Assembly: GCF_037126465.1 (NCBI RefSeq)
Contig: NC_088209.1
Coordinates: 9,432,052 to 9,496,051 of the forward strand
Length of the DNA: 64,000 nt
Direction of reading: 5' to 3'
Source of the DNA: Ornithodoros turicata
Lineage: Eukaryota; Arthropoda; Arachnida; Ixodida; Argasidae
The translations under genes were made by a program, and so were the position numbers. Positions 6,109 through 43,054 of the stretch are shown one piece after another (positions within the stretch are counted from its first letter, which is position 1; every line of letters starts with the position of its first letter). The notes beneath the pieces are model-generated. The model had not been told where the DNA came from. It worked only from the letters and a program-made list of their open reading frames with translations, and ran no database searches.

Positions 6109-6116
6109 AGCGTAAC

Positions 6117-8502: not shown

Positions 8503-8510
8503 CCTTGTAC

Positions 8511-12003: not shown

Positions 12004-12015
12004 GTTTTCCCTATG

Positions 12016-13758: not shown

Positions 13759-13765
13759 AGAAAAG

Positions 13766-14205: not shown

Positions 14206-14209
14206 CTTT

Positions 14210-14434
14210 TGTAGACAATTTCACTCACGATTGTATAGATCGAAACCGCACATTTGCTCGGGAGCATCTTTATTGTCCGACTGCTTCTCCTCTTTCGAGG
14301 ATGTACATGGTATTGGCTTACATAAACATCAGTCAGGGGTTGGGGGCCTCTGGCCTCGTCTGACTCACGTGGCGGATTGGCGCCGTGCTTTTGTTTTGTC
14401 TTGGGTCGAAGTGCTCGAGTTTCGCACGTTTACA
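14210..14434 (-). repeat. 3' LTR of the Gypsy element
   Basis: A 225-base direct repeat of 19288-19512 with scattered substitutions. Ends are TGTAAACG and GTCTACA on the - strand. It holds a tttattgtc stretch and a block (gtacatggtattggct) found identically in both LTRs. Confidence 0.9.
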
Positions 14435-14817
14435 CTCGGCCATCCTGCCATGCTCTCGTCCCGAGAGCACAATACGGAACACAACACAAAACTCAACTAC
14501 ATTAGAGTTCATGAGTATCTGAAAGACGCAAAATCAATGCAATATAACAGAATCATCGCAAAATATGAAACAAAATCAAATCAATCAAACACAAAATAAG
14601 ATATATGAAACTAAACTTCACTGTCGCTGAGGACGTCGCCGCAGTCTTCCTTAGTGAGCTTAGAGAATTTCATTTGACTTGCATGGGCAGTCGTGGTGTA
14701 AGTCGGACGTGTCGACTTTTCCGGAACACGAAGATTGGTTACACGGTAGGAGTCCGCTGAGAGGACCTCTATAACAATGAAAGGTCCGCGGTATTTTGGT
14801 TGTGGCTTTGTCGGTAG

Positions 14818-17417: not shown

Positions 17418-17505
17418 ATCAGCATGGGGGACACTTCATCCACTTCCGGTTTACGCAAACGTACCTGTCCCGCCTTTACGGCTAGCGTTGACTGCCCGTG
17501 GTTTG

Positions 17506-18237: not shown

Positions 18238-18243
18238 AGTCCC

Positions 18244-19209: not shown

Positions 19210-19287
19210 TGTACAGCGTTGTCAAGTCCCGCCACCGGCTCAGAATAAAACACAAAGTGCAAGAATCCGTCGTATTCCACTTCTGAG

Positions 19288-19512
19288 CGTAGATAATTTC
19301 ACTCGCGATTGTCTATATCGAAACCGCACATCTGGTCGGGAGCATCTTTATTGTCCTACTGCTTCTCCTCTTTCGAGGATGTACATGGTATTGGCTTACA
19401 TAAACATCAGTCAGGGGTTGGGGGCCTCTGGCCTCGTCTGTCTCACGTGGCGGATTGGCGCCGTGCTTTTGTTTTGTCTTGGGTCGAAGTGCTCGTGATT
19501 CGCACGTTTACA
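19288..19512 (-). repeat. 5' LTR of the Gypsy element
   Basis: A 225-base partner of 14210-14434. Its inner end reads cgtaga where the other LTR has tgtaga, showing independent decay. A tggaatacgacgg stretch lies about 9 bases inside on the - strand and could be the primer-binding site, but I could not match it to a tRNA. Confidence 0.9.
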
Positions 19513-22500
19513 CTTTGTACTGGAGATCGTCTCAGAAAAGCTGGAGTTCTGTGCAGCCTCAAAAGAGGCGGTCATGCGTTTCAGGAACTTATCTGCAGTC
19601 TACCGACCAGGGCACGTATATACCCTCTACGCGAGCCATATGCCTGGACAGGTAGTGCTCACGAGTGAAGTTTGTAAAAGAATGTCTTCATGCTTGGTTT
19701 GATTGGCATCCTTTGTACTCGAACCAAAACATCCTTGCCGGGCCAACTGGGTGGAATATCTCGATAGACAGGCACAGCAAACAATGTGTCGATCAAATGG
19801 GCCGCTAGCGTTTTCTTGTTGACAGAGAAGAGGTATTCAAGGGTAAATCTGGCTTTCAAAAAGATCATGCCCTACACGACTTCCCTGAACGAGCCTGTCT
19901 GCAACATAGTTCCCTCTGTGAACGTGACGTGTAATTCCAGGATGTAATTACATGAAAGGACGCGTTTTACACCCTCGAGAATGGGATGCAGCTCCACACG
20001 AAAAAAAACAACAAAAAAAAACAGAGTCTCATGACCAGTTGTTGTACAAAGAGTTGCTGTAGTCCGAGACCTCCATTACGAAGTTTTCGAAAAAGATAGT
20101 CATGACGCATCCTATCAAATGTAGAGTACCAGATTGTGGTGGCAAAAATCATGTGACAGGCGTGCACTACTTTGCGTGGGCATTGCAACACTTGCATAAG
20201 GTAAACCAGTTTAGCGGCTAGAAACACGTTGCATACCGTCGCTTACTGAAAAATTGAAAGATCTTTCTGCCTCCAGATGAAAGCGTGCTTCCTTATGTTG
20301 TCGTGCCTCTGAGCGACATTCGACTCGGGTTCCTGGTTTCTTGCAACGGGACGCGAAGATAACGAGAGTTTTGTTCCTGCCACGGAATTCCGCAGAAAGC
20401 TTCAGGTGTTGTCGCCCAGAGGCCGCACCAAACGTCAAAGGTCTTCTCCTTGTTCACACGCGTTCCGGACGCTTGGCCAAACAGATCAACTTGTTGCATG
20501 ACATTCACTAGGCTAGGTTTGTCTTTGGCAAGGAACGCAAGATCATCAGCATATGCGGCCACCTTGATCACAGTACCGGCCAGTCCGAACCCTTGGGTGT
20601 TATTCAGACGGATGACTCGCCGACACAGCGGCTCCATGTACAAGTCAAACAGCAGTAGTGACCGGGGGCAGACCTGTCGAACCGAGGATCGGAGCATGAT
20701 CGGTGCAGCAAGGGTGCTGTTAATGAAGAGGCTTGCTCGTAACAAAGCTTGATGCGAGCGCCTGCGTTAACGTATTCGAGCAATGCAGACAAATATGTGT
20801 GACATACGCGGTCAAAAGCTTTAGAAATGTCCTGCTGTAACATGGCTACATGGTCCCCCTCCTACCGACACCATTACAGAATGGTACGCAGCACACGATT
20901 ATTCGTCAGTATTGTCCTGCCCCTTATTCCGCAGGTTTGGTCATCACCTATCAATTGAGGTAACACAAGTTGTAGTCGGGCAGCCATAACTTTGTCATAT
21001 ATCTTGTAATCCAGATTGTAATCGACATTGCATATGGTTATTGGCAGTACCTTTGCAGTCGAACCTTCTGCAACTTTTTTAGAAACCAGAACGGTTTGCG
21101 ATCGGCGCTAACTGCCGGAAAAAAATCCCATTTTCTTGAGCATCAGCGTCTACATCCAACAAAATAGGCAGGAGATAAGCGGTAAACTTTTTGTAAAACT
21201 CGCCACCTAGACCGTCAGGGCCAAGGGAACGATTTAAGTTCAGTGATGCAATTGCGTTGCTGATTTCTTGTTCTGTGAACGGCGACGCTAACATTTCTGT
21301 TTCCTGTTCCCGAACTTACGCGTTTCAGAGAGGAAAGCTGGAATACAACCTTGATTGACAGTGGTTGCTGCCGTCCCAAAAAAACTACTGCAATACTGCA
21401 CAAAAAGGGTCTCTATGTCCACGAGGTCAGTCACCACTTTCCCCTCACTCTCCAAGCACGTGATGAGCCGACCACCCGTGTGCTTACGCTCCTCCGCGAT
21501 ACTGCTTTTTGTGGGAACTTCACCAGCAAGGAACCGTTTGGATCTCGACCTAACTCTTGCGCCTTCGTACCGATTATGGCCGAGGAGTTCTACACGATGT
21601 TTAATGTCGCTTATCTCCTGTAAATACGACCCAGGGTTTCCTGCTTCCCACTGCAGTAGAGCTTGGTACGACTCTTTCAGCTTGCTCTCTTCATATGTGC
21701 GTTGATAGGACAATATGTTACTTCGCTCAATTGCAAATGATCTGACCTCATGCTTAAGTACTGTCGTTGCGCCGCCCCACACCTCGTGTCAGAGCTGATA
21801 TCGGCGAGCCTATCCACAACATATTCCACAAACGGCACGTCATCAAGGAGCTGTGCATTCATCTTCCGCTACTCGACCTCGAATCGCCTATGCCGCAGGC
21901 TCGATTTCCGAAGGTGACGATTACGAGGCAGTGATGAGTAAAGTACACTGGATAAACGTCATACTGAGACACATCTTTGAGCTGATTTTGGCCTCGGGAA
22001 AAATATATCCGATCCAACCTTGCATGTGAGCTGCCTTGAAAGTGTGTGGACTTGACAGTTGCGTGTGTACTGAGCTCGGCTGCGTCCGTAAAACCGTATG
22101 CCTCGACTATGCATTTAAGGCACTCAGCACTAGGGTCTTCTATCCCCCGGGGCGTGCTACGGTCATTGGCTGACAGAACACAATTAAAGTCCCCTATGAA
22201 CACCATGTTACAGTTTGTGTTGACGTCATTACGCGCATAAACAACTGAAATTCTCCTAAGCTCTCCACCAATGAGGGCATCGAGCATAGCTGCCCTACCC
22301 TCTACGCTGCTGCCCTCTAACTATAGGAAAGGCTCTTTCGTACGAAAAGCATAACTCCAGCCGAGTGACCAACAGCGTGGCTTACAACAACGCCATACTA
22401 ATCCATGAAATATTGGGACAGCATCTGCTCGATGCCCTGTTCAGCCCCCATCTTGCTCTCTTGGGCAGAGAAAACGTTGATTGGCGGGTAGCTGTCAAGG

Positions 22501-22690
22501 AGACGTTTCAACTGATATTGCTTCTTTTTCGCGTTTAGCCCTCGCACGTTAAGGGTAGCAAAACTAAGGTAACACTTTTTTCTTTCCCACCTGTTATTAA
22601 CAAATACGCACAGGTACACGCAAGTACAAGTACGTCACACTCTTGCAACGCCGAGGGCCATTACAAAACCTCTAAAGAGAAAACTGCATA
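19513..22690 (-). pseudogene. Second L1/Tx1-type LINE, ORF2 from endonuclease to post-RT region
   Basis: Reading on the - strand: LSFATLNVRGLNAKKKQYQL (22398-22619), MVFIGDFNCVLSANDR with LDRIYFS and a late His (21859-22287), a linker, SLGPDGLGGEFYK (21079-21294), QQDISKAFDRVCH (20604-20843) and the catalytic AYADDLAF (20293-20745). The post-RT block YSTFDRMRHDYLFRKLRNGG (19967-20227) follows. The domain order is endonuclease then RT, as in L1/Tx1. Multiple frameshifts and stops make it inactive. The 3' end continues at 14205-13836 beyond the Gypsy insertion. ORF1 is missing, so the copy is 5' truncated. Confidence 0.88.
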
Positions 22691-23000
22691 CTTTTAAGTT
22701 TTGAAAACTCGACTTCGACTTAGCCCACACACCATACGGTTTCTCCCATTACACCCGAGGGAAACAGTCAGGTACGATATTGTCATGCTTATAGCCTTGT
22801 ACTGTCTGTGAAAACTTCGTATGGCTGACAGGAATGAAGAACCATTAATGCCTTCTATGAAATACTTTCAGATGGAAATAACCCAACTTAAGCTGTGCCT
22901 TATGCGACGTTTAGAGCTGCTAGATTGGCTAGAAATGCTGTCTGATGCCCTTATGTGCTTGCAGAATTGTTATGTCCAAATTCAAAAGCTAAGCTAACAC
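22690..23000 (+). repeat. Inverted LINE 3' fragment
   Basis: The + strand reads as the same C-terminal/3' region found on the - strand at 13940-14205 (cacaccatacggtttctccc, then cttatagcctt). It abuts the - strand segment 22575-22690 in opposite orientation. This resembles the 5' inversion made by twin priming during LINE insertion, or a later inversion. Confidence 0.6.
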
Positions 23001-23030
23001 ACCTCCTCAGCGACTTCCAAGGACGTGTCA

Positions 23031-23103
23031 TCTGGTAGAGCCTGGTAGAGCCCTGGACCGGAAATCTAGAAGATGTAGGTACGAATCCTACAGCTGGCAA
23101 ACC
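23031..23103 (+). repeat. tRNA-like module (copy 3)
   Basis: The + strand carries tggtagagccctgg, ctggaccggaaatctag and a slightly altered B-box (aggtacgaatcc). It is followed at 23104-23270 by a fragment matching the 5' start of LINE ORF1 (compare 13620-13760), just as copy 2 is. Confidence 0.6.
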
Positions 23104-23270
23104 TTTCCTGTGCCTTTCATATTTCATCGTTAATTTCTTAGGCAATTTGGGGCTTTGCATGTATTTGGCCTTTCTATGTTGTTCCAGCCTCAGAACATCA
23201 GTCCTCTCATGTTGAACAGTTGCTGCTTGCGTCGATCCCGTCGTATGATTGCGTGTATGAGTGGGAAGAA
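23104..23270 (+). repeat. LINE ORF1 5' fragment following a tRNA-like module
   Basis: The + strand encodes a piece (LCCSSLRTSVLSC) nearly identical to the beginning of the ORF1 at 13758 (LCCSSLRTSVFSC). It shows the same junction between module and ORF1 on the other strand. Short and without the rest of the gene. Confidence 0.6.
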
Positions 23271-23351
23271 TGTAAGAGTGTGAAACAGTGAGAGACAGTG
23301 GTTGAATTGTCCCTTCAGATGACGCGCCCGTGGAAGTCGCTGGGGAGGTGT

Positions 23352-23427
23352 GTTAGCTTAGCTCAATTGGTAGGGGCCTGGGCCGGAAATCCAGGAGATG
23401 TGGGTTCGAGTCCTACAGCTGGCTAAC
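23352..23427 (+). repeat. Best-preserved tRNA-like module (76 bases, cloverleaf-foldable)
   Basis: The acceptor stem GTTAGCT/AGCTGGC, D stem GCTC/GGGC, anticodon stem CTGGG/TCCAG and T stem GTGGG/CCTAC with loop TTCGAGT all pair. The anticodon loop is CCGGAAA, so the nominal anticodon is GGA (Ser), but position 33 is C instead of the near-invariant U. The variable arm is short, unlike a true tRNA-Ser. A tRNA-derived repeat is more likely than a functional tRNA gene. Following bases again match the LINE/SINE unit seen at the other copies. Confidence 0.65.
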
Positions 23428-23821
23428 CTTTTCTGTGACTTCCATCTTTAACCGTTAATCCCTTACGTGCTCAGGTGGGACGCAATGATAAGTAATGCCT
23501 CGCGATGGGAAAAAATCAATTCACACGTGTCATCGTGTACAGACCTTTCAGCCGAGAAGACATTATTCCTTAGTTTCGTAGAACTGATGAGGCAGAAACT
23601 GGATGCTACGATATTTACTGAAGTCGGTTCTCATCAGTCTATGAATGGGTTGTGATGTGGTCTACGTTAGTCAAAGAAGTGCACGTCTTATGCCAAAGCA
23701 AGAGGCGAAAGACGAGGCTTTAGAAAAAACAGGAACCAACTCCTTGGCAGAATGTTGCGGTTTATAGTTCGCAGGAACATCATGCTCAGCATTGAATTAT
23801 CATTTTGAAGTTGGTCCCCGG

Positions 23822-23893
23822 TCAAGTTTTGCGCTGGAAGCCAATTTTGCAGCCACCCCAGTTGCATCCGCCTTGGATTGCAGTGTCCGGTCT
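23822..23893 (-). CDS. Terminal exon of a tick Salp14/basic-tail-like secreted protein (candidate)
   Basis: On the - strand a good acceptor (cgtggttgtgtttcag) precedes 24 codons ending in TGA. The product contains GGCNWGGCKIGFQRKT: the G-x-C-x-x-G-x-C pattern followed by basic residues that closes the Salp14/basic-tail family of tick salivary proteins. The frame is phase 0, matching the phase-0 donor of the exon at 43055-43141 on the same strand, which carries the preceding part of the same cysteine pattern. The family call rests on motif spacing only. No AATAAA was found nearby. Confidence 0.5.
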   Translation of the reverse strand, partial: RPDTAIQGGCNWGGCKIGFQRKT

Positions 23894-24336
23894 CTGAAAC
23901 ACAACCACGAGAAAGGAAACGTTAAGTATGGTTGGAGGAATTTCGTACAGCTCTGCTGCTTTTAATATGTGATACCAACGTCTAGTATCCAATATGGAAT
24001 ACCAGAATAGCCACCAAAAACATTCATTACACAACCACATGAAATCTTCCCGTGAATACCTGCGCCCCTCCGAGAGGGCAATTCGTGTCGAGTAGTTGCG
24101 GAAATACTGATCCGCAAAAAGCAGTGACCAGGTGTCCACCTGACTCTGATGGCGAATTCGGGTGGCCATCTCGTGGCAACACGGCCTAGCACTCGGAAAT
24201 TGCTAGGTGGATGCCGAGCTGGATCACGTGACCGTTGCCACACGAACATGAGTGATAGGAATCTAGCGGTTTTAGTTACTTGGATCGCGCTAGGTGCATC
24301 GCGGTTGCCCGTCTTCGAGTTCCATCGTCTACTAAA

Positions 24337-24807
24337 TCATGTGATTTCAATGTGCGGGGCAATGAGGGCACTCGCCACCGTTCCACCCTTCGTCGCTCCG
24401 CAACGTTGTTTCGGACCGCGAGACGAGACGTCGTAATCGTTCTTTAAATGTTCGTCGTCCTCGACAAAGAGTCCAGCCGCGTGCACTGTTTCTTGAGCCA
24501 GAGGCGTGGAATGAAGCACGACGTCCAAAATACTCCTGTAGGCATACAACTCGTTGGAACTGACGACCTTGTTGTTCGCATAAACGGTGACCATCTTAAA
24601 CATGCCGCTCAACAGGTGGTTTATTGGGAAAACGACATCTTTCTCGTCCATTTCTTCCCCGTCGTCGCGAACAATGCGCACGGTCAAAGACACGAAGCTA
24701 CCGTAGAGATCCAAGTGTCCCCGTTGCAAATTTTGAATAGAAAATTCGATAACGGAATTATTTACTCCGTTGACCGGATAAAAAAGTTGGTACAAAGTAT
24801 CTTCCAC
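24337..24807 (-). pseudogene. Polinton major capsid protein (double jelly-roll), N-terminal fragment
   Basis: About 130 residues of recognisable similarity: IEFSIQNLQRGHLDLYGSF, then VVFPINHLLSGMFKMVTVYA, ELYAYRSILDVVL and AGLFVEDDE. This is the N-terminal jelly-roll region of the Polinton/adintovirus capsid (related to transposon-derived proteins annotated as F54H12.2-like in invertebrates). Full capsid proteins are roughly four times longer, so the gene is cut off at about 24340-24430. Beyond that the frame turns to unrelated sequence. Confidence 0.85.
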
Positions 24808-24827
24808 GCCATATTGAACAGAAGGGG

Positions 24828-25220
24828 TTAGAATATCATCACGTCACTCGTAAGACAGATCGGCGTCTGTATTTTTCCTTTCGTTGACGTCATGATGGAC
24901 GGAGCGCGCTGCGGATGTGTGACCTTCACGGCGTACCAAAGATATCTGCAGGTGCTTAGTGTGTCGGCGCCTTTCGTTGTCTTTTGGGGCGTTTCTTCCC
25001 ATTGTTGTTTCCAGAGCCCTCCATGGAATCCAGCACGTCTCTCCCCGTTGCTATGGCCGTCTTTTTTACTGCGCGCGATATTCCTTCGCCATCGGTTCCG
25101 CGCCAAGCGCTTCAACGTTCTCTTGGCGATCGGTTTTATTTGCTGCCAGATGGGAACGATAAACTTGGATATGTTGCTCAACACACCGCCCCCTCGTTGG
25201 AAAGGGGGTTCCGTGTACAC
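24828..25220 (-). CDS. pVI-like minor core/capsid protein of Polinton
   Basis: An ORF of 130 codons between the penton-like and capsid genes. It begins with a Gly-rich, then amphipathic N-terminus (GGGVLSNISKFIVPIWQQ) followed by basic residues (KRTLKRLARNRWRR). Position and composition fit the adenovirus pVI-like protein of Polintons, thought to act in capsid assembly or membrane disruption. The C-terminal half is low in similarity features and may run past the true end through a frameshift. Medium confidence. Confidence 0.55.
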   Translation of the reverse strand: MYTEPPFQRGGGVLSNISKFIVPIWQQIKPIAKRTLKRLARNRWRRNIARSKKDGHSNGERRAGFHGGLWKQQWEETPQKTTKGADTLSTCRYLWYAVKVTHPQRAPSIMTSTKGKIQTPICLTSDVMIF

Positions 25221-25225
25221 GGGAA

Positions 25226-26540
25226 TTATTTTAGTACAGATTTGAAATACAACGTTAGATTGGTTCTGCCTTTGGACCGCAACGGCAGACGTCTTCCCGT
25301 TTCGTCCGCGAGAACGATCGTCACTGAGGGAATTTTGGATTGAGAGAGGTTAAAATACTGAATGTTATCTAACGTGTAGGTGACGACGTGCTTGTCTTTC
25401 TCGTAATAAAAGGGTAGTACTTTTAATATCGGTTTTTTCCCACTCCCCACGTACGAGGGTTCCACGATATCCGTGTAGACGATTATGTTGTGAAACGGGG
25501 GTTCTAGGAGTACCTCGACGGCGCTCGAGGCATCCTCCTCCTCCCCCGTGAACGCGGTACGCGATTCGAAGCCCAAAAGCACGACCAGGTACTTGGAAAG
25601 TCTTAAGGTGGAGGTGCCCTCAGAAAGCCGAATTTTACATTTCTCTTCGGTTTCATCGAAGCTGAAGCGCGCGCGTTCGCCTACGCGCTGGTTAATTGCA
25701 TCCAGAAGTGCTTGTGGCACCTCATAATAGCCGGGAGGCAGACGTACTTGCAAAGATCGAGGAACTTTCGTCTTGATCGTGATAGAAAATTGACGCGCTA
25801 CGGGGAGAGAGACGCGTAACGTTTCTCTGTGTCTCTCGACGGGTGTGAGATGTAGCAGCTTGACAAAGGGTTCCGGTATGTGCAACCCTTTCGGCGTTTT
25901 CATAGTGTAGATATTATCCGCGAATTCTAGCGAGGCGTCCAGCTTGTGCGTTTGGAAATACTTGTTGAGTGTTACGTAGGGACGTGGTTTCCGAATTCAA
26001 AGTGACGTCGTCGAAAGCGACGGGCGCGGCGTGCTCTAATAACATGGAGGTGGCTTCACGCTCGCTCAATTTGGGAGGCTTCACCGCACGACCTGCTTCG
26101 CGGGACGCTAGCGAGGCGTCGAGCGCCGGTGCGAGACGAGGGTCCAATTTCACGGGTTTCACGTCCACGGGTAAGACGAAGTCGTATCGCGATTTATTGT
26201 ACGCGAAAGAAACGTTAAATTCCGAAAGGGCTTTTCCCAAATCCCCCTCGAGATCCGAGGTGACACGAAAAGTTATCCAGGCTTCGACCGTGTCCTCGAC
26301 AGAAACCTCGATTTTCGCATCTTGCCTTTCGTACCCGATATTTAAAAAATTGTTGCTTATGCTGAGATCCATCAGACCGACTTTATAGCGATTCGAGAGC
26401 TGAAGCGGACTATCGAAAGCTACCGTGAAGGCGTTGAGTTTATTCAAGGGAAACTTATCCATGCTGGCGTTCGAGAGCAGGTGGACGTAGATGTCTGACG
26501 TCAGTTCCCAATCTTGACCACGTCGCTGCTCGGAACCCAA
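25226..26540 (-). pseudogene. Penton-like minor capsid protein, one frameshift
   Basis: Two frames in sequence: 25914-26540 (IYVHLLSNASMDKF, then LSNRYKVGLMDLSISNNFLN) and 25226-25903 (RLPPGYYEVPQALLDAINQ, IVYTDIVEPSYVG, YFNLSQSKIPSVTIVLADE). The switch falls near 25975. The combined region matches the widespread Polinton minor capsid (single jelly-roll penton) protein often annotated as an uncharacterised invertebrate protein. The N-terminus overlaps the end of the integrase reading frame. It would form the capsid vertices. Confidence 0.85.
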
Positions 26541-26974
26541 CTGTCGTGTTCCTTGTCATAGCCGAACCAGCGAACCAAGTAGAAGCTCTGACCGTTCACT
26601 TGCTTCTTTCTCAGCACTTTTGTTACTGGCCAAGGCTGATTGGCGTCTCGGGTTACGACGAGTACCTCCTCCGGGTAGAAAGATCCGTCCACTTCCTTAC
26701 TCCGGTTATCTTCCAGGTGCACGACGGGAGAGGAGGTGTCTCTCAGGCGGGAGATGGTGAAAATCTGAGGCGACCAACTCCGTTCCGAGCTCTTATGAAA
26801 ACCTTTTCTGTGTAGTACGACCTTCACTTTATCTCCCACATTGAGCTTCTTTTCCACGGAGGGTACGACAAGCTTCCCATTTATCTTATTGAACAGCTCC
26901 AATTCGTTTTCGGGTGTGACTTCGGACGGACTGATGCCCAAAGTCCTGTGTTTGGTGGTGTTGTAGTCGCGCAC
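26501..26974 (-). pseudogene. Polinton integrase C-terminus with chromodomain
   Basis: Begins with the end of the retroviral-type core (RDYNTTKHRTLGISPSEVT), continues through an SH3-like part (LNVGDKVKVVLHRKGFHKSS) and ends in a chromodomain (YLVRWFGYDKEHDSWVP). Chromodomains target integration to marked chromatin. The catalytic DDE core that should precede it is missing: the N-terminal piece at 27110-27290 joins almost directly to this part. Frame open but enzyme dead. Confidence 0.88.
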
Positions 26975-27109
26975 GATCTTGGAAAGTGCGGAAACGAAGT
27001 GGTATTTTCCGGTTACTCTTTACTCCGGTACTTTACCAGTCGCGTAAAGTACGTATCACCCATTGTGCCTGCGATGCTTTGATTACTGGAGAGAAGGTGG
27101 AATACATGT

Positions 27110-27290
27110 GGACATTTGCCACACATCGTTGATCTTGAGCGCGATGATGTGTCTCCTATTAAACTTTCTTCTGACCGGATGGTGTAGCGTGTAGACGTCC
27201 AGCTTTCTGAGAATGGCGAGAGCCTACTTTTTGCTCAAGAGATGCGCTTTTCTATAGCGGTCCACACACCCCAAACCACCCGCTGGTTTC
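27110..27290 (-). pseudogene. Polinton integrase N-terminal piece; catalytic core deleted
   Basis: In a frame with stops, the - strand reads RYRKAHLLSKK, then ALAILRKLDVYTLHHPVRR and IALKINDVWQM, the N-terminal region of Polinton integrases that leads into the first catalytic Asp. Shortly after NDVWQM the similarity breaks and resumes only near the end of the core (27010). The DDE residues are therefore lost through an internal deletion. Confidence 0.7.
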
Positions 27291-27764
27291 TCATATCCCT
27301 CCATAAGTCGTCCACGCAATGGAGGCTTCCTGCTGCTGTTGAGGCACGCGAGATTTGGGCAGAGAAATCAGGCGCAATAGTTTCGAGACTTTGGGGAACC
27401 AGGAAGGTTTCTTTTCCGTTCTACGTTGCAACAAATAATTGACGAGTTCATAAACGGAGGGGTGCCTGATGGGCTTGCCCGACACGGAGACACAGCCCTC
27501 GCAATCCCAGGAAAGAACCTTCTTTAATTCCGAGACGACCCTTTCTGCTTCCTCTTCGTCCACCTCTGGAGAGAGGACCGAACAGTCAATGTCATTTGTA
27601 GCGTCGGACGCCTTGTTTTTATTGTCGTAGGGGTCAAATCCGTACTGCATGAGTATGCGATACAGTGCTTGTAGTAAGAGTTTCACTTTGACGTCGTCAC
27701 TCTCCTTCGAGGAAAGAATGTTTCCGATGAAGGAGGAGGTGGTCACTTCAATTATCTTGGCCAT
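27291..27764 (-). CDS. Conserved Polinton protein of unknown role (copy B, intact)
   Basis: A 157-codon ORF, homologous to the broken one at 3867-4160. Its ATG overlaps the pX-like gene, and its 3' end runs next to the integrase start. Notable features are KESDDVKVKLLLQALYRILM, an acidic stretch (EVDEEEAERVVSELK) and a basic C-terminus (LLRLISLPKSRVPQQQQ). Probably helical. The two copies keep the same start and acidic segment, arguing for a real gene. I do not recognise the family. Confidence 0.6.
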   Translation of the reverse strand: MAKIIEVTTSSFIGNILSSKESDDVKVKLLLQALYRILMQYGFDPYDNKNKASDATNDIDCSVLSPEVDEEEAERVVSELKKVLSWDCEGCVSVSGKPIRHPSVYELVNYLLQRRTEKKPSWFPKVSKLLRLISLPKSRVPQQQQEASIAWTTYGGI

Positions 27765-27770
27765 TGGCGA

Positions 27771-27987
27771 AACACGGTGGAAAGTAGGAGAGGAACGACC
27801 GAAGAAAGAACACCCTGTCCTCGCTGCTAAGACAGATAGCGCTTCAAACGTTGCGGATTCTTGTGAATCTTTTTGTAGGCACGCGTCGTAAAAAGCGTTT
27901 GTGCTTCTTCAAACGCGCGAACGTGTCTGGAGCTAGAGTCACCTTTCCGTTCAATACATTGAGGCAAATTTCGGAGAGGTGTTTCAT
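27771..27987 (-). pseudogene. pX-like small basic protein, frameshifted (copy B)
   Basis: Counterpart of 3635-3883. The start MKHLSEICLNVLNGK and the basic run RLKKHKRFLRR are in frame, then an indel moves the remainder, including the hydrophobic tail, out of frame. The next ORF starts at 27764, so the overlapping arrangement is the same as in copy A. Confidence 0.6.
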
Positions 27988-28068
27988 GTTGGACGAAGAA
28001 GAACGTCTCAAGACGCGGAGGGGGTAGAGTGGAGAGTAGTTTGAGTAAAGTGAGGTGAGGGCGGAGAT

Positions 28069-28714
28069 TCATTTCGGAGCGTAGATATATTGACGTTCTC
28101 CCGGAAAGATATTGCTACGCAACCTGTGGTCATCGTGCATATAGTTGTGAAGATCCACGAGTAAATAAGCGTGGGGCGACGACATCGCTTGTTTATATGC
28201 GTCCAGAAAATACTCAAATCTTTTTCTGGCAAATAGCTGTTGCCCGAAATGTTCCATCTGGTGCACGGTGCGCACGGTGTGCCACAGGACGACGTAACTG
28301 GCGTTGTAGGGTATAGTTCTAAAATGGCTACTGTCGAAAAAGATGTTTGGAACTAGTAAGAAGATCAACGCGCTTGGCATGGTGAGAACCCCGAATGAAA
28401 AAATCGGTCACCTCCTTCAAGGAACCAGCATCGGTCATGTGATCGTCGACGACGATCAGCGTAGCGCGCGACGTGTCCCACTCACGCTCCTTCGTAAATT
28501 TTACGGAGTCCCCAAATTCGTCCTGTATGCTCGGCGAAGCATATTTCTGCACGTAGAATATTTGTGACGGAGGCCTGTCCACCACGTCGTTCAGGTTCCT
28601 CAGCACGTTCGCAACGAACGTAGATTTGCCACACACAGAGGGGCCGCTTAAGATACAGTGAAAAGGATGATGGAAACGAAAAGGTTCGGGGGAAGACATG
28701 TTGGGTGCGTACAC
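28069..28714 (-). pseudogene. FtsK/A32-like genome-packaging ATPase, frameshifted (copy B)
   Basis: The N-terminal frame (28328-28714) has Walker A GPSVCGKST and Walker B-like TLIVVDDHMTD. The C-terminal frame (28069-28380) has YNASYVVLWHTVRTVHQ and ends RQYIYAPK. The frameshift is near 28350, about 30-60 residues further along the protein than the one in copy A. The two copies therefore decayed independently after being functional. Confidence 0.88.
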
Positions 28715-28764
28715 TCTACACGAAGAAAAAGAAGAGACTGAGACTCGTAGAGAAATGCAATGCT

Positions 28765-28770
28765 TTTATT
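28765..28770 (-). terminator. Polyadenylation signal after the small Polinton ORF (copy B)
   Basis: AATAAA on the - strand, just beyond the small ORF's stop (28795). Conserved with 2838-2843 in copy A. Confidence 0.5.
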
Positions 28771-28794
28771 TACGCGTCGTCGTCGTCCTCTATA

Positions 28795-29049
28795 TCAGAA
28801 CTGGGTTTCCCAATAGAGATTATCCAGGCTAAAGTTGGACTTCTTTTGCGTCGGTCTGTCGGCCGCTAAGATGCGGTCGAGCGTCTTCATCTTGTCCTGA
28901 CACATTTCTTGATGTGCAGGCAACCATTCCAAGTGGTGGACTTGAAAGGCTTCCTCCACGATGCCACGAACAAATTCGCGAAGTTCTTCGTTTTTTGTCT
29001 TTCCTCGCCGACGAAAAATGCAGAATAAACTACACATGGCGTTTTCCAC
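28795..29049 (-). CDS. Small conserved Polinton ORF (copy B, intact)
   Basis: Encodes 84 residues: a Cys/Phe-rich start (MCSLFCIFRRRGK), then NEELREFVRGIVEEAF and KMKTLDRILAADR. Only about 40 bases separate its ATG from the TATA box at 29090-29096. The same gene in copy A is broken by an indel. The conserved ILAADR and LDNLYWE segments suggest a real product; family unknown. Confidence 0.6.
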   Translation of the reverse strand: MENAMCSLFCIFRRRGKTKNEELREFVRGIVEEAFQVHHLEWLPAHQEMCQDKMKTLDRILAADRPTQKKSNFSLDNLYWETQF

Positions 29050-29059
29050 GTATTGGTCA

Positions 29060-30116
29060 GAATGATGACGCGAGCGCGGTGCGCGCTGCCTTTATACAGA
29101 GAAACGCGCAGGCAAAGAAAGAAGAGCGAAACCGAAACTGAGAAGCCACCCGTCGCCGCTAGGAGCGCTAGGGCGACGCAGAGGGCGCTAGGAGCGCGCG
29201 CGTGCATAGCTGCCGTGGAGTGGCGTCCCGGTCAGTTGCCGGCTGGCTGTCGCGGAGAGCAGACATGTGCTCGGTTGCTTCGCAGTCCCCGCGGCCGCTC
29301 AGATGCTGGCTGGCTGTTGCGGAGAGCAGACGTGTGCTCCGTTGCTTCGCACTCGCGGATGGAGCAGTCGCCGCGGCGGAAAAGGTGAGTGATTTGGCGC
29401 GCTCCTTTCCTCGCATGTTTGCCGTGCCCCCCCCGTGTTTAGTGGTGACCAACGAGTGATTTGACGATGTTTGACCGTGCTCGTGTTAAGCCTTTTGTTC
29501 GTGCTGACGCACGTTTAGCGGTGTTGTCACGCTGTGGTTAGGGCTGAGCGATCGCTCCCTCTAAGCCTTTTCCCCAGATGTGTACTGTTTTCTCTGTGCT
29601 GTTTAGCAGTAGCGGATAGACCTTTTCTCTCGCATGCCTAGACTTGTTTAGCACTGCTGCCATTTTTACCTGCCGCTAGTATCTTGTTGTTCTCTTTCTT
29701 GCATAGAGATATGATGGTGGTGCCATCTGGTGTGATGCCTTGCAACTAAGTGGCCACCTGTCATTGATCTCTGCAACTGTCCATCGCCAACTACCAACAT
29801 GGCGGCCGCTGGTCACTCGGACGTTTCGGAGCGGTTTCTTCGTCACGGCGTCATTGATTTTCGAATAAATTGTTTCTCTCCACTCTATTTCTATCTTTTT
29901 ATTTTATTTTCTACCTATGTGTTTATTTTCTATGGACACAGGTTGTCGCCAACGCACAGGGTGGTCTGGACACGAGTTAGATGCTCCCCAATTAGTGTGA
30001 TGACTAATTGGATGATGCTGATGAATGTGGGAGGTCCCAATTAGCTCTAATTGCTAATTAAACGTGTCCAGAAGCCTTGTAGCGTTGCCGACAGTCTGTG
30101 TCCAGTCATTACTACT
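29060..30116 (-). repeat. Polinton terminal repeat, copy B
   Basis: Inverted relative to 1412-2500 and alignable along most of its length (for example gatggtggtgccatctggtg and aacatggcgg). It ends with attactact at 30116. It includes the TATA box (29090-29096, TATAAAG on the - strand) and taagcctttt-type iterations near 29490-29650. Confidence 0.8.
29090..29096 (-). promoter_or_regulatory. TATA box of Polinton copy B
   Basis: TATAAAG on the - strand, upstream of the intact small ORF (start 29049). Same position relative to the ORF as 2514-2520 in copy A. Confidence 0.65.
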
Positions 30117-35454: not shown

Positions 35455-35472
35455 ACCAATAGTAGTAATCAT

Positions 35473-35656
35473 TCAACCCAAGTTTTGAACAGAAAATCCA
35501 CGGCAAGTATTGCACTTTTTACTTTAAATTATTTTAAAATTACTTTCAAATTTTTAAAAATTTAAATTTTAAAATTTTTAAAAATTTTAAATTGTGGAAA
35601 ACCTGACTCAGTGCAATACTTGTCGTGGATTTTCAATGTAAAACTCGGGTTGTAGG
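35473..35656. repeat. Terminal hairpin of the palindromic element (left)
   Basis: Inner palindrome: aacccaagttttgaacag...atccacggcaag at one side and cttgtcgtggat...aaactcgggtt at the other, around an AT-rich loop (about 35520-35595). The same hairpin occurs in mirror at 42694-42877. Each end of the element therefore contains its own hairpin, reminiscent in form only of parvoviral terminal hairpins. Confidence 0.6.
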
Positions 35657-36354
35657 AAATAAAAAACTAGATAGAAAGGAAGCAGACAGTGGGAAATAAT
35701 TTATTTGAAAATCAATGACGCCATCTTGAAGAAATCACGCCGGTGCGGGCGACTGGAGCACGACAGTTGCAGAGGCAGGTGGCACGTTAGTTCCAAGGCA
35801 TCACACCAGATGGCACCAGCATCGTAGCTCTATACGAGAAAGACAGAGAACATGAAAGTACTAGCGACACATGAAAATGGCAACACTGCTCGACAAGTCT
35901 AAGCATGCCAGAGCGCGGGGAAAAGGCCTAACCGCTACTGCTAAACAGCACGGAGAAAACCCTACACATCGGGAGAAAAGGCTTAAGGCAATCGACTAGG
36001 CCTAACCACAGCGTCACAACACTTCGCGGCTAACACAAGGCGGGAACCACTAACCACACGATGGTAAACGTGCGTCAACAGGCTTGGACACCGCTAAACA
36101 AGTCTAAACATTCACGTACGGCGAGAAAAGGCTTAACACGAGCACGGTAAAACAACGCGCAAACATAGGTAAATCACTCATCTTTTTCCCTGCTGCGATG
36201 GAGCGTCCGCTCTCGTCGACAGCCAGGGATCAAGTGACGACGGAGCGATCGACCGCACGTCTTCTGCCTACGAGAGCCAGAGCTGGACTGACGTAAGCGC
36301 CACTCTGCGGGTGCTACGCATGCGCTCCTAGCGCCCTCTGCGCGCTCCTACCGC

Positions 36355-38130
36355 CACCTGCGAGAGGCTATGAGAGAAGAGCATTACTGCGCCCCCTGCT
36401 GGCCGTTCTCATTGGTCGTGAGGCTAAGAGAGAAGAGCATTCCTGCGCCCCCTGCTGGCCGTTCTCATTGGTCGTGACGTCATCCTATTGTTTCAAGGCT
36501 ACCCTGTTTTTTTCCACTAATGCTCCCCTAGACAAGGTCAATCTGCAATGAAGCCACGGTATGACGTCATCATGTATCTGCGTGGTTCAAGGACGCATGT
36601 GCTCTAGACAGGGGACCTACTATTTATTGAATCACTATCCCAAGATTATTTCCGTTATTCTTCTATAACGATTGAATAGGAAACTATTGCAGAAGAGCGC
36701 CACACATGAAAGCTGATCGTAGGAATTCCAAAGTCTTACTAAATGAGACTTGCAAAAGAACAAAATATCCTAACACGTAACTCCATCAACGACAAATAAG
36801 AGGACTAGGCACTCAACAAATCAACACAGAGCATGGCTAACCAGGAACGCAGAAGTCAGGGCAGCACTATCGTTAAGACAACGATGTTCCTTGTCAAAAA
36901 AGAAAAAAATACAAAGCGTCAACAAAGGAAAGCATGCATATCAGGGCATGTCAGAACACGTCAGGACAAATCGCACGATTGATGGGCAACAGAGGAAAAC
37001 AAACACTTGAACAGAGTGAAAAAGACACTCACCATCATTTTTCACGTTCACAGCATTCCCTCATTGTAAATCCGCTCGTCACAAAATCCACCTGCATGGT
37101 CGAACACCACTCACCAGTGACGAACCACACATCCGCACCCCATCAGGGCCAGACAGAACCCCAGCGAAGCTACGCTCTTCCACTGACGGCCAACGCAATT
37201 AGCAGGAGCAGGATTTGCGTGTCCAGACCCGTCAGTGTTCAAGAGAGAAGTGAATCCTTGCGCCCCCTGGAGGCCGTTCTCATTGGTCGTGACGTCATCC
37301 TATTGTCTCAGGGCTACACTGTTTTTTTCCACTAATGCTCCTCTAGACAAGGTCAACCTGAAACAATAGTCTCGCTGTATGACGTCATCATGCAGGTGCG
37401 TGGCTCAAGGACGCGTACGCTCTAGACAGGGGACCTGTTATTTATTGAATCACTATCCCTAGGTTATTTCCTTTATTCTACTATAATGATTGCATAGGGA
37501 ACTATTGCAGAAAAACACCATAGATAAGAGGAGATTGTAGCATTTCATTCCCAAAGTCTTACTGTACAGGGAAAAAATAATGGTTCAGCAAGAAGTGTCC
37601 ATCCCAGCCAAGAGCCTTGCACCTAACTGAATAATGACGCTTTGTTCCTCCTGAATAAAGTCACACACCTGTCCCCCTGGCGGTTACTCTCTGAACTAAA
37701 TGAATCGCATAATTATTAAGAATAGCACTATTCCCATTCAAGGCAGCACTATCGTCATCGTCAAGAATATTCCTTGTACAAAAAGAAAAAAAACTACATG
37801 TAGAAGGAAAGCATGTCAGCGCATGTTTGTCAGACAACAAGGAGGAAAACCAGTATCAAACTATTTCTAAGCACACACACTCCTCTTATTCAAAAACAGT
37901 GCTCATCATAAATCCGTCCAGGACAATACACACCATTTTTGTATTGCTACACTTTTTTCCAGTAACGGTCAATGCATTGCTACAGACTGCGTGACGTCAT
38001 CACATCCTGTCTGAAGAAGAAGACAGCGGCAAAGACTCCTATTATTTATTGAATCGCAAGGTTATTTCCTTTGTCCTACTCTTAATGACATTCATTCTCT
38101 CATTAAAATTCAACACAAAAGCACCCTGCA
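36355..38130. repeat. Iterated ~800-base modules in the left arm
   Basis: Blocks starting near 36470, 37285 and (shorter) 37990 share gtgacgtcatc, then tctagacaggggacct and tatttattgaatc. Between the first two, ccactaatgctcc and ttattctactata also repeat. Each module carries TGACGTCA words (36475, 36562, 37290, 37380, 37992) and the first two carry GCGCCCCCTG-type words (36389, 36445, 37260). The right arm mirrors them. Confidence 0.65.
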
Positions 38131-38639
38131 TATTAACGATTTTCACCCCAAAGGCTCATCATGGTCATTAGAATTACAGTAAACTACCACTGCTCTTTAA
38201 AATGATAAGTGAGTCCACTCCACATCACCTCCAGGCTTATGTAATACATGACCCTTTCTATGCTCATACATTCGTTGTCTGAGGCTACACCTGCGAGCAA
38301 AAAGCCGGGGGGCAAAGTTCCGTTCGCGCATTGCGAGCAAAAGGGCGGGAAAGCCTGGGAGCAAAGTTCCATTCGCGCACGCCAAAGCACAAGACAGAAC
38401 GCCTTTACGGGAACATGACGGCATTCCAACCATATTAATGATGTTCTACCTTGCATTGCAGTTTAGAAAAACTACTACAAAACTATAATTTTAGGAGCCC
38501 ATTAAAATTCTACTTTCTATGGAAACTATAATTGTCCTATTACTTGGATCGCTATTAATGAAGCGCTCCAATATTTTCTCTCCTCCCATTTCAGCCTTGT
38601 CATGCAGTGAAGCAGACTCACATCCAAAATAATAATAAA

Positions 38640-39840
38640 TAATAAATAAATAATAAAAAGATTTATCGCCAGGGTACAACAATGTCAGCTCTGCTTCCGA
38701 AATGGGTGTCTTTGTCATAGTTCATTAGCGTGTGCGTCGTTATTTTATTTATTTTTTCTCTTATAGCTATGCGAGCAAAAGTGCGTGTAATTTTCGCTGC
38801 TCTTTTCTTATTTTCTCTACTTTTATGTAGAAGAAAGCCTCCTGCGTAAAAGCTGAATAGTGTTCTACCAGTGGAAGTGGGGTTGTTTGTTTGATTTTGT
38901 TGGGTGTTCGATATCTTGACGAAGTAAGCAGTGCTTAATTTTGCAGGTTTTTGAGCAGAAATGCTGGTATCTGAGCACTGAGTAGGAATTTCTATATTTC
39001 TCTGCTCCTTAAGAAAATTTGTACGTCGTTTTCCAAGCAGACCGCGTATAGTTTACGCGAAATAGAAAAATGAAGTTGTGTATGCTCTATGATGATCCGC
39101 CGCGGGCTTAGGCCTTTTCCCCGATGAGCAGTGTTTTGTATGCGATGTCGCATGTCTGGACTTGTTCAGTAGTGTTGCAATTTTTACCCTTCGCTAATAT
39201 TTTGTTGCTGTCGTCTTGTGTTAGACGAAGAGCTTCGTAGCGATGTGCGGTAACGCTACGATTATTCCTGAGCGCTCCGTGTGTTTAATGCATTGCCCTC
39301 TGTGCGTGCATGCGTGTGCTTTTTTTTCCTGATTTGTGACATCATCGTGGCATGTCTGGACTTGTTTTGCAGTGTTGCAGTTCTTCCCACTGCTAGTATC
39401 TTGTTGGTGTCATGTTGTGCTAGCCGCGTGGCGATGTGTGGTGACCTGAGGTATTAAGCCTTTTCCCTGCTCACCTAAGGAAATTTGTGTATCCCTGTCC
39501 TGTGCTTTCTTTACGCAAGGGCAATGCGTCTGTGTATGTGGCACTATCACATACCAGACATGAGTGTCTTTTTCTTAGTTTATTAGCATATGCTTCAGGT
39601 TTTTTAAGTCAAGCACAAGTGCGCGCAATTTTTCGCTGCTCTCTTCCTCAAATCACCGATTTTACGCAGAAGAAAGTCGCATGATGCAGCTGAGAAGAGG
39701 GTTTCTCTGATTGTTTGTTAGATGTTGTTAGGAGCTCGGTATGTTGAGGAAGTCAGCTGTTAAAGGTATCCGTGAAGAAATGCTTGCATCTGAGCGCAGG
39801 ATAGGAATTCCTGAAGCCCGGCACCCTCAGTGTAAATTAA
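38640..39840. repeat. Spacer between the palindrome arms
   Basis: Contains a diverged direct repeat (about 38700-38960 and 39560-39780; both with gtgtctttgtcat or gtgtctttttctt, then ttttcgctgctct). Pieces resembling the Polinton terminal repeat occur near 39110-39210 and 39350-39410 (gccttttccccgatg; gtctggacttgtt). There is no coding region above background. Confidence 0.5.
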
Positions 39841-42693
39841 TTATTTTGGATGTGAGTCTGCTTCACTGCATGACAAGGCTGAAATGGGAAGAGAGAGAAA
39901 ATTGGAGCGCTTCATTAATAGCGATCCAAGTAATAGGGCAATTATAGTTTCCATAGAAAGTAGAATTTTAATGGGCTCCTAAAATTATAGTTTTGTAGTA
40001 GTTTTCTAAACTGCAATGCAAGGTAGAAAATCGTTAATATGGTTGGAATGCCGTCATGTTCCCGTAAAGGCGTTCTGTCTTGTGCTTTGGCGTGCGCGAA
40101 TGGAACTTTGCCTCCCGGCTTCCGCGCCTTTTTGCTCGCAGGTGTAGCCTCAGACAACGAATGTATGAGCATAGAAAGGGTCATGTATTACATAAGCCTG
40201 GAGGTGATGTGGAGTGGACTCACTTATCATTTTAAAGAGCAGTGGTAGTTTACTGTAATTCTAATGACCATGATGAGCCTTTGGGGTGAAAATCGTTAAT
40301 ATGCAGGGTGCTTTTTTGTTGAATTTTAATGAGAGAATGAATGTCATTAAAAGTAGGACAAAGGAAATAATCTTGCGATTCAATAAATAATAGGAGTCTT
40401 TGCCGCTGTCTTCTTCTTCAGACAGGATGTGGTGACGTCACGCAGTCTGTAGCAATGTATTGGCCGTTACTGGAAAAAAAGTGTAGCAATACAAAAATGG
40501 TGTGTATTGTCCTGGACGGATTTATGATGAGCACTGTTTTTGAATAAGAGGAGTGCGTGTGCTTAGAAATAGTTTGATACTGGTTTTCCCCCTTGTTGTC
40601 TGACAAACATGCGCTGACATGCCTGGGCCTGTTCTGACATGCTTTCCTTCTACATGTAGTTTTTTTCTTTTTGTACAAGGAATATTCTTGACGATGACGA
40701 TAGTGCTGCCTTGAATGGGAATAGTGCTATTCTTAATAATTATGTGATTCATTTAGTTCAGAGAGTAACTGCGAGGGGGACAGGTGTGTGACTTTATTCA
40801 GGAGGAACAAAGCGTCATTATTCAGTTAGGTGCAAGGCTCTTGGATGGGATGGACATGTGTTGCTGAACCATTATTTTTTCCCTTTACAGTAAGACCTGG
40901 GGAATGAAATGCTACAATCTCCTCTTATCAATAGTGTTTTTCTGCAATAGTTCCCTATGCAATCATTATAGTAGATTAAAGGAGATAATCTGGGGATTGT
41001 GATTCAATAAATAACAGGTCCCCTGTCTACAGCGTACGCGTCCTTGAGCCACGCACCTGCATGGTGACGTCATACCGCGAGACTATTGTTTCAGGTTGAC
41101 CTTGTCTAGAGGAGCATTAGTGGAAAAAAACAGTGTAGCCCTGAGACAATAGGATGACGTCACGACCAATGAGAACGGCCTGCAGGGGGCGCAAGGATTC
41201 ACTTCTCTCTTGAACACTGACGGGTCTGGACACGCAAATTCTGCTCCTGGTAATTGCGTTGGCCGTCAGTGGAAGAGCGTAGCTTCGCTGGGGTTCTGTC
41301 TGCCCCTGATGGGGTGCGAATGTGTGGTTCGTCACTGGTGAATGGTGTTCGACCATGCAGGTGGATTTTGTGACGAGCGGATTTACAATGAGGGAATGCT
41401 GTGAACGTGAAAAATGATGGTGAGTGTCTTTTTCACTCTGTTCAAGTGTTTGTTTTCCTCTGTTGCTCAGCAGTCGTGCGATTTGTCCTGACGTGTTCTG
41501 ACAGGCCCCGATATGCATGCTTTCCTTTGTTGACGCTTAGTATTTTTTTCTTTTTTGACAAGGAACATTGTCGTCTTAACGATAGTGCTGCCCTGAGTCT
41601 GCGTTCCTGGTTACCCATACTCTGTGTTGATTTGGTAGTGCCTAGTCCTCTTATTTGCCGTTGATGGAGTTACGTGTTAGGATATTTTGTTCTTTTGCAA
41701 GTCTCATTTAGTAAGACTTTGGAATTCCTACGATCAGCTTTCATGCGTGGTGCTCTTCTGCAATAGTTTCCTATTCAATCGTTATAGAAGAATAACGGAA
41801 ATAATCTTGGGATAGTGATTCAATAAATAGTAGCACACGCGTCCTTGATGACGTCATACCGTGGCTTCATTGCATATTGACCTTGTCTAGAGGAGCATTA
41901 GTGGAAAAAAACAGGGTAGCCTTGAAACAATAGGATGACGTCACGACCAATGAGAACGGCCAGCAGGGGGCGCAGGAATGCTCTTCTCTCTTAACCTCAC
42001 GACCAATGAGAACGGCCAGCAGGAGGCGCAGGAATGCTCTTCTCTCTTAGCCTCTCGCAGGTGGCGGTAGGAGCGCGCAGAGGGCGCTAGGAGCGCATGC
42101 GTAGCACCCGTAGAGTGGCGCTTACGTCAGTCCAGCTCTGGCTCTCGTAGGCAGAAGACGTGCGGTCGGTCGCTCCGTCGTCACTTGATCCCTGGCTGTC
42201 GACGAGAGCGGACGCTCCATCACAGCAGGGAAAAAGGTGAGTGATTTACCGATGTTTGCGCGTTGTTTTACCGTGCTCGTGTTAAGCCTTTTCTCGCCGT
42301 ACGTGAATGTTTAGCCCCGCCTTGTGTTAGCCGCAAAGTGTTGTGACGCTGTGGTTAGGCGTAGTCGATTGCTTTAAGCCTTTTCCCCCAATGTGTAGTG
42401 TTTTCTCCATGCTGTTTAGCAGTAGCGGTTAGGCCTTTAGCCCGCGCTCTGGCATGCTTAGACTTGTCGAGCAGTGTTGCCATTTTTATGTGTCGCTAGT
42501 ACTTTCATGTTCTCTGTCTTTCTCGTATAGAGCTACGATGCTGGTGCCATCTGGTGTGATGCCTTGGAACTACCGTGCCACCTGCCTCTGCATCCGTCGT
42601 GCTCCAGTCGCCCGCACCGGCGTGATTTCTTCAAGATGGCGTCATTGATTTTCAAATAAATTATTTCCCACTGTCTGCTTCCTTTCTATCTAG

Positions 42694-42877
42694 TTTTTTA
42701 TTTCCTACAACCCGAGTTTTACATTGAAAATCCACGACAAGTATTGCACTGAGTCAGGTTTTCCACAATTTAAAATTTTAAAAAATTTTAATTCTTTAAA
42801 AAATTTTAAAGTAATTGAAAAATAATAGTAAAAAGTGCAATACTTGCCGTGGATTTTCTGTGCAAAACTTGGGTTGA
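42694..42877. repeat. Terminal hairpin of the palindromic element (right)
   Basis: Mirror of 35473-35656 with an AT-rich loop at about 42770-42835. It ends a few bases before the terminal attactact (42881-42889). Confidence 0.6.
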
Positions 42878-43054
42878 ATGATTACTACTACTAATATGGG
42901 ATTTGTACTACGGTCCTCATGCTTTAGGACTTCGTTTCGCCCCAAATACTACAGTAGGCTTTCCTGTAGCATTTTAGATGTTGTCATGCTGCACTGCGAA
43001 TGGACTCGGCGAGTGTGAAAATAGTTGAAAAGTGTGGCCGTTAACTCTACTTAC

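Follow-up and report, generated by a model that had tools for sequence, protein, structure and literature searches.

The window analysed here is a stretch of 64,000 nucleotides from the Ornithodoros turicata assembly (C9:9432052-9496051; the assembly comprises 1,071,346,672 bases, and other loci are named below by contig and position). The subject of this report is a 7.4-kb near-palindrome at 35461-42889, the window element, which is best explained, with a probability that we put at about 0.82, as one member, worn by deletion, of a family of giant palindromic Polinton satellites that carry no genes and whose arms are probably renewed by fold-back copying. These palindromic satellites very probably exploit the enzymes of Polintons.

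The window element

A sequence-only reading had described Polinton-type ends on both sides, a flanking 6-bp near-duplication (accaat/actaat), mirror arms of about 3.1 kb, similarity of the outer arms to the Polinton terminal repeats in the window and an absence of capsid and integrase genes, and all of these descriptions held up. The exact 9-mers AGTAGTAAT, starting at 35461, and ATTACTACT, running to 42889, form the termini and recur in the window only at the ends of the window's own Polinton (1412 and 30116); the flanks ACCAAT and ACTAAT agree at five of six bases. When the arms (3176 and 3054 bp) were aligned, as that reading had proposed, they proved to be 96.9% identical across 3032 aligned positions, the alignment containing 13 indels and giving a Kimura two-parameter (K2P) distance of 0.032, and blastn pieces between them ranged from 94.9 to 97.7% identity; a mirror produced by chimeric reads is disfavoured here, since it would be expected to be about 100% identical. 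Against the terminal repeat of the window Polinton the outer arms align over about 900 bp, with 71-79% identity in the longer pieces, and in the outermost 180 bp or so the two elements are unlike in sequence and both form a hairpin. At E<=0.1, tblastn matched nothing in the window element to the penton P0001 or to seven protein pieces from the window Polinton (integrase, ATPase and MCP-like pieces among those tried), and three weak matches had E values of 0.7-0.9. A polymerase query (DNA_pol B), run against the whole window, had no match, and Pfam had nothing at E<=0.1 for the longest open reading frames (ORFs) of the two arms (152 and 139 amino acids, aa).

The centre found in other members of the family is absent from the window element. 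The left arm extends to 38633 and is followed by an A+T-rich joint, by a remnant of the centre flank (38658-38693) and, from 38699, by right-arm interior; the 1.2-kb 'spacer' that had been taken for unique DNA is the interior of the right arm (38699-39835), its left counterpart having been lost. This anatomy indicates that the window element is a deletion derivative of a longer palindrome. The description of it as a giant foldback rather than a simple deletion product stood in one part, in that the interior of the arms is unlike Polintons, and fell in the other, in that the window copy is not the full form but is itself a deleted palindrome.

Two further observations concern motifs in the arms. 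Ten of the window's 15 sites of the palindromic word TGACGTCA (36402-41960), which we take to be CRE-like, lie inside the element, the shuffle mean being 1.9 counting both strands, or about 0.9 sites, and the same word occurs 1 to 7 times per half in the nine palindrome-type relatives described below. All three of the window's matches to a motif that we presume to be CTCF-like are in the arms, at the 56-bp units (shuffle mean 0.04). An outward splice donor that at first seemed conserved was rejected, being altered, by eye, in the left ends of both the window element and the window Polinton, and for this reason no transcript is claimed for the arms.

A family of giant palindromes

When at most 2 mismatches are allowed, the end pattern AGTAGTAATNNNNCAACCCAAGNTTT has 390 matches in the assembly (194 forward and 196 reverse, against 0 for the reversed control), a count that takes in Polintons as well as palindromic satellites. 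The best 40 of 2297 candidates for a 580-bp arm query were all 93-100% identical, and with an end of the C4 Polinton described below as query the best 40 of 2577 candidates were scored. Among the matches listed, which were those free of mismatches on contigs C1-C3, 28 facing pairs of ends were recognised by eye, 25 of them spaced 6.8-19.4 kb apart and the other three 184 bp, 33.5 kb and 55.3 kb, the widest of which need not be one element.

Whole-element structure was read in ten palindrome-type copies from this one species, the window's (7.4 kb) and nine relatives of 7.5-14.9 kb. Five of the nine relatives are palindromic over 92-99% of their length, the fraction in chained inverted arms being 0.99 at both C2:0.65M and C1:117.9M, 0.97 at C1:183.3M, 0.95 at C5:40.66M, 0.92 in C154, 0.86 in C8, 0.78 in C272, 0.73 at C1:197.3M and 0.38 in C6, which hosts a nested THAP9/P-like transposase. 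The arms of the fetched copies have diverged by about 0.5-5.5%, with indels. An asymmetric centre is common to four copies (131 bp at C1:183.3M, 138 bp at C2:0.65M, 137 bp at C1:117.9M and 133 bp in C154); it has a GC content of 0.73-0.76 and 30-34 CpG, is bordered by AAGTGATAAAACAG and, when the sequences are read by eye, is present in both orientations. In C6 the same AAGTGATAAAACAG words enclose 109 bp, and the centre at C1:197.3M is different, a perfect 55-bp stem with a 13-nucleotide loop lying within the arm. The full-length plan comprises AGTAGTAAT and a hairpin, about 870 bp common to Polintons, several kilobases of non-coding and in part repetitive sequence (internal repeats make up 44% of the arm interior at C1:117.9M), the centre, in four copies, and the arm again in inverted orientation. 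An element of only 184 bp (C1:181117641-181117824) has two ends, one hairpin and an exact duplication (ATTGTC/ATTGTC), and its second stem arm, by eye, starts like a normal inner arm and finishes like a copy of the outer arm.

The possibility that the arms are coding was rejected, since their ORF lengths are near the shuffled expectation and no protein matched. Outside nested DNA the longest ORFs of the palindrome arms run to 150-196 aa; when one arm was shuffled 30 times at mononucleotide level, ORFs of up to 192 aa arose. Of the 11 candidates for a 138-aa arm ORF none reached E<=0.01, and a 71-aa ORF brought up no candidate. The Polinton protein pieces tried gave no match at E<=1e-3 in 18 element halves or in L033, together 19 palindrome-type loci.

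The genome search that the sequence-only reading had proposed yielded copies with the same ends, and exact 6-bp duplications flank 19 of the 22 two-ended elements of this end type, namely nine of the ten fetched first, C44, five of six in a later set, three 15.05-kb elements and the 184-bp element. The inexact cases are the window element (5/6), C36 (4/6) and the outer pair of ends at C4:32.4M (ACGGAC/GCGGAC, 5/6), where the inner pair of ends has inverted flanks. In the first nine relatives the flank match stops at six bases and the duplications are locus-specific, and blastn found no match between the 2-kb flanks on the two sides of the window element.

Polintons with the same ends

The claim that the window element is a non-autonomous Polinton derivative is supported by the presence, in the same genome, of Polintons with matching ends and machinery genes. 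The Polinton at C4:32.4M has an integrase C-terminal piece (89% aa identity), penton pieces (78-89% aa identity) and a match to DNA_pol_B_2 (E 9.8e-15), and its two ends align with the outer arm of the window element at 92.3% identity (744 aligned positions) and 85.7% identity (932 aligned positions), identity across the outermost 730-740 bp being 92%. Pieces of polymerase B resembling that of C4, each in an element with an exact duplication, were found at C5:34.96M (25.8 kb; 88.6% aa, with integrase and ATPase pieces), C1:173.6M (15.0 kb; 90.1% aa, with integrase, ATPase and penton pieces) and C1:88.5M (90.6% aa; 3 kb of the left interior covered). Exact duplications also flank the elements of about 15.05 kb at C1:69.97M, C2:59.67M and C1:219.47M, in which the outer 850-873 bp or so is 90.0-97.2% identical to six palindromes; a penton locus lies, from its coordinates, about 3.9 kb inside the left end of the first two, of which the ends were the part covered. 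Beyond its first 900 bp the arm of C1:117.9M had no nucleotide match longer than 63 bp to 17 Polinton pieces, a set without the middles of the 15.05-kb Polintons, and the short matches of 43-63 bp in the arm interior cluster round one terminal inverted repeat (TIR) motif.

At least 98 penton loci (the best 98 of 3027 candidates) are 97-100% identical to one protein, 93 of the 98 having no inner stop, and the Polinton population of O. turicata is apparently both large and recent. Terminal repeats of Polintons are long here, 2.7 kb in the window Polinton and 1.67 kb in the inner pair at C4. The latter locus (C4:32406281-32422074; L031, L032, L035, L036 and L052) is a Polinton with its left 5.4 kb repeated in inverted orientation (about 99% identity), giving a structure of 15.8 kb; in the middle there is a third end (32422074 being one end found) and then 425 bp that correspond to the inverted left host flank at 99.8%. 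Both the third end and the inverted flank led to the rejection of the inner pair of ends as a 10-kb element.

Subterminal hairpins and kinship of the arms

The outer 200 bp at each end of the window element folds better than any of 200 shuffles (scores in Table 1). In the window Polinton the right end has a z of -9.4 and the left end one of -2.9, with 4 of 200 shuffles as good, and despite hairpins at the ends of both elements the stem sequences differ. All of the 43 ends tested, from satellites and Polintons, reached a stem score of at least 32, although these ends are related and hence not independent trials; among the controls, 2 of 1247 window stretches reached a score of 30, and 21 of 1808 locus stretches reached 30 and 6 reached 50. 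The geometry is standard in 42 of the 43, with arm 1 starting at position 11-15 and arm 2 ending at 178-201, the exception being the outer right end at C4, where arm 2 ends at 166. Among 13 ends compared in detail, the main stem usually occupies positions of about 13-53 and 144-187, and there are at least four stem sequences. AGTAGT is present in 41 of the 43 ends, with one change each in the right ends of C6 and C36. In the end types of L058, L059 and L060 the outer stem was observed to have changed on both sides of the hairpin together, as if one stem arm had copied the other.

When a tree was built from the outer 2.7 kb of nine elements, with C6 omitted because of its insertion, both arms grouped as sisters in eight of the elements, with bootstrap values of 100 for seven and 89 for C5. 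Arms were mutually nearest in eight of the nine elements, compared with at most three in 2000 trials of random pairing. Among 342 differences between the arms within an element, 267 have an allele private to one element, in 73 both alleles recur in other elements, and 2 have neither, which indicates that most arm differences postdate insertion; for differences between elements, both alleles were shared in 2375 of 4800.

Origin of the palindromes

According to the explanation favoured here, the protein-primed polymerase of a Polinton would copy a satellite starting at its ends, and the Polinton integrase would insert the copy. The strand displaced during copying may fold back, and synthesis round the centre would renew one arm from the other; the arms would be near-identical at insertion and would diverge only later. 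Fold-back at other points could give rise to shorter forms, such as C1:197.3M with its new centre and the 184-bp element, and after insertion the chromosomal palindromes would tend to lose central DNA, as in the window copy. Gene conversion between arms on the chromosome could also maintain the identity of sister arms, and fold-back copying is preferred to it because it accounts as well for the C1:197.3M centre and the 184-bp element.

Besides gene conversion, a number of points weigh against this explanation. We infer trans-mobilisation and fold-back replication from ends, duplications and sequence. The arms of C1:197.3M are not sisters, so that at least one copy mixes two lineages, sister arms were recovered in only 7 of 11 elements in a tree of 0.9 kb, and there are the 73 arm differences of which both alleles occur in other elements. 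A deletion between similar hairpin arms would explain the 184-bp element equally well. The window Polinton, which has another end type, is flanked by CGAGAA and GGTTGA, with no duplication and agreement at 2 of 6 bases. Three young Polintons sampled via their pentons have ends nearer to those of the window Polinton, which indicates that at least two end types coexist.

A more tentative possibility is that the palindromes are linear, self-complementary satellite replicons of a Polinton- or adintovirus-type virus, copied from their hairpin ends by the protein-primed polymerase of a helper, renewed arm from arm at the GC-rich turning point and perhaps packaged in the capsids of the helper. Their sizes, mostly 11-15 kb, are near that of the 15.05-kb helper, and as such replicons they may be an animal counterpart, inherited as transposons, of natural self-complementary adeno-associated virus (AAV).

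The palindromes might instead be ordinary internal-deletion derivatives of a Polinton with very long terminal repeats, their symmetry inherited and maintained by gene conversion. This we regard as unlikely: local Polintons do have terminal repeats of 2.7 and 1.67 kb and the window copy did arise by deletion, but the arm beyond 900 bp shares no match over 63 bp with the 17 Polinton pieces, the Polinton protein pieces were unmatched in the 19 palindrome-type loci at the threshold given above, and the 131-138-bp centre common to four copies does not resemble random deletion joints. It is very improbable that the palindromes were made passively, once or a few times, and spread by segmental duplication or recombination and not by transposition. 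The complex inverted rearrangement at C4:32.4M, with its 425 bp of inverted host flank, would be in keeping with such a history, but 19 two-ended elements have exact 6-bp duplications of their own, the flank match of the first nine relatives is limited to six bases and the 2-kb flanks of the window element are unmatched.

Palindromes are a known class of assembly artefact, and the inverted flanks at C4:32.4M might raise the suspicion that single arms have been mirrored by chimeric reads. Arms that differ by about 0.5-5.5% with indels, between different flanks and with exact duplications, leave very little room for that view. There is scarcely any likelihood that the family belongs to the foldbacks of the Mutator or P superfamily and that its ends only look like those of Polintons. 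Inverted arms that are long and internally repetitive do characterise foldbacks such as Tetris and Galileo, but Tetris makes duplications of 8-10 bp, as against 6 bp here; furthermore, the outer 870 bp or so is 90-97% identical to Polintons, and elements with the same ends carry polymerase B and integrase pieces.

Other features of the window

The window's large Polinton has ATPase-like pieces within both terminal repeats, the ATPase label having been given by eye from a P-loop and weak Pfam matches. It is interrupted by a stretch resembling a long interspersed element (endonuclease match at 12084-12842) and by a long terminal repeat retroelement with reverse transcriptase, integrase and protease matches and direct repeats at 14211-14436 and 19289-19514. 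Its penton-like ORF is 88% identical to an O. turicata protein, the sole match at E<=0.001. Pfam gave nothing above the cut-off for ten other ORFs in the Polinton and in the insertions nested within it, six pieces of the Polinton gave two weak matches in PHROGs, for the integrase piece only, the MCP-like piece had no match by sequence in PDB and the penton had none in IMG/VR. The 18-base TIR word was present in four IMG/VR contigs and was dismissed as chance, a blastn comparison with the window finding nothing for three of them and only 22 bases for the fourth.

A second, unrelated inverted duplication, also represented by L039, pairs 58000-61419 with 62973 to about 66305, past the window, the left limit being the edge of the query. 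It is 97.8-98.6% identical in its main blocks and A+T-rich, and its ORFs (114-167 aa) had no Pfam match above the cut-off. Pieces of a hAT-like transposase lie at 49367-55083, with Dimer_Tnp_hAT at 2.8e-05 (+ strand, above the cut-off) and DUF4371 on both strands below the cut-off.

Table 1. Coordinates of the window element, its parts and the neighbouring Polinton (positions in the window)
Feature	Position	Strand	Basis or remark
Left target-site copy, ACCAAT	35455..35460		5/6 against right copy
Right target-site copy, ACTAAT	42890..42895		5/6 against left copy
Terminal motif AGTAGTAAT, left end	35461..35469	+	Exact 9-mer; compare Maverick (AGT)2//(ACT)2
Terminal motif, right end (ATTACTACT on + strand)	42881..42889	-	Exact 9-mer
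Left subterminal hairpin, main stem about 40 bp, A+T-rich loop	35474..35652	+	Fold z -10.6
Right subterminal hairpin	42708..42876	-	Fold z -8.7
Left outer segment common to same-end Polintons (first 730-880 bp)	35461..36343	+	Alignment to C4 Polinton ends
Right outer segment common to Polintons, inner limit approximate	42025..42889	-	Alignment to Polinton ends
Left arm	35461..38633	+	Arm alignment
Right arm, paired part	39836..42889	-	Arm alignment
Tandem 56-bp units	36364..36477	+	Repeat comparison
Larger diverged direct repeats per arm, with TGACGTCA sites	36426-36740 / 37241-37563	+	Left-arm coordinates
Remnant of shared-centre flank, reached by deletion	38658..38693	+	36 bp, 91.7% to C2:0.65M arm 5975-6010
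Right-arm interior, left partner absent	38699..39835	-	95.4-95.9% to arm at about 3.1-4.3 kb of C5:40.66M and C2:0.65M
Decayed 28.7-kb Polinton with AGTAGTAAT ends, outside the window element	1412..30116		ATPase-like, integrase C-terminus and chromodomain, penton-like pieces

Comparison with known systems

To our knowledge the replication of Polintons has never been followed directly, and the readable ends, hairpin, centre, length variants and duplications of the satellites would open the protein-primed and fold-back modes of Polinton replication to testing. Palindromes of some 12-14 kb persist in an animal chromosome, which bears on the question of palindrome instability, and they bear also on the possible production of double-stranded RNA in ticks. 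No non-autonomous Polinton or Maverick, miniature Polinton or Polinton miniature inverted-repeat transposable element (MITE) was found in the literature, subscription papers and Repbase lying outside the scope of the search. Among the listed matches for Polintons in combination with MITE, tick, subterminal, hairpin or foldback, and giant palindrome, no such element was apparent from titles and the opening of abstracts. A MITE is a short non-coding element, under about 1 kb, with the ends of an autonomous relative. The satellites are likewise non-coding and have the ends of an autonomous relative, and the 184-bp copy would fit by size, whereas the fetched satellites, at 7.4-14.9 kb and largely palindromic, are far beyond it.

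Intact vertebrate Mavericks have (AGT)2//(ACT)2 ends, perfect 6-bp duplications, TIRs of 46-1,447 bp and a length of 12.7-24.6 kb (PMC8097293). The satellites resemble them in their (AGT)2//(ACT)2 ends, 6-bp duplication and terminal inverted repeats; the outer 870 bp or so is common to the satellites and the local Polintons, and a coding Polinton with the same ends is present in the genome; they differ in that no polymerase, integrase or capsid gene was found and in that their arms are about 3-7 kb and not 46-1,447 bp. Since polymerase and integrase were not found, the family is classed as a non-autonomous derivative of Polintons and not as a Polinton.

With the foldback elements Tetris, in which arms of up to 1,735 bp and duplications of 8-10 bp are described (PMC4079207), and Galileo, described as having internally repetitive arms in a source that also mentions expansion of Polinton inverted repeats (PMC3573991), the satellites share long, inverted, internally repetitive, non-coding arms and rearranged forms. 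They are set apart by their 6-bp rather than 8-10-bp duplication, by their Polinton ends, by a coding relative with those ends and, from Tetris, by arms of up to about 7 kb. Snapback (self-complementary) defective genomes of AAV occur in symmetric and asymmetric forms (PMC8235507). In structure the satellites are like these genomes in the inverted duplication of one end and in the occurrence of symmetric and asymmetric forms, and they would likewise need a helper. AAV is a parvovirus with rolling-hairpin replication, unlike the satellites, which are chromosomal insertions with 6-bp duplications and a presumed protein-primed helper.

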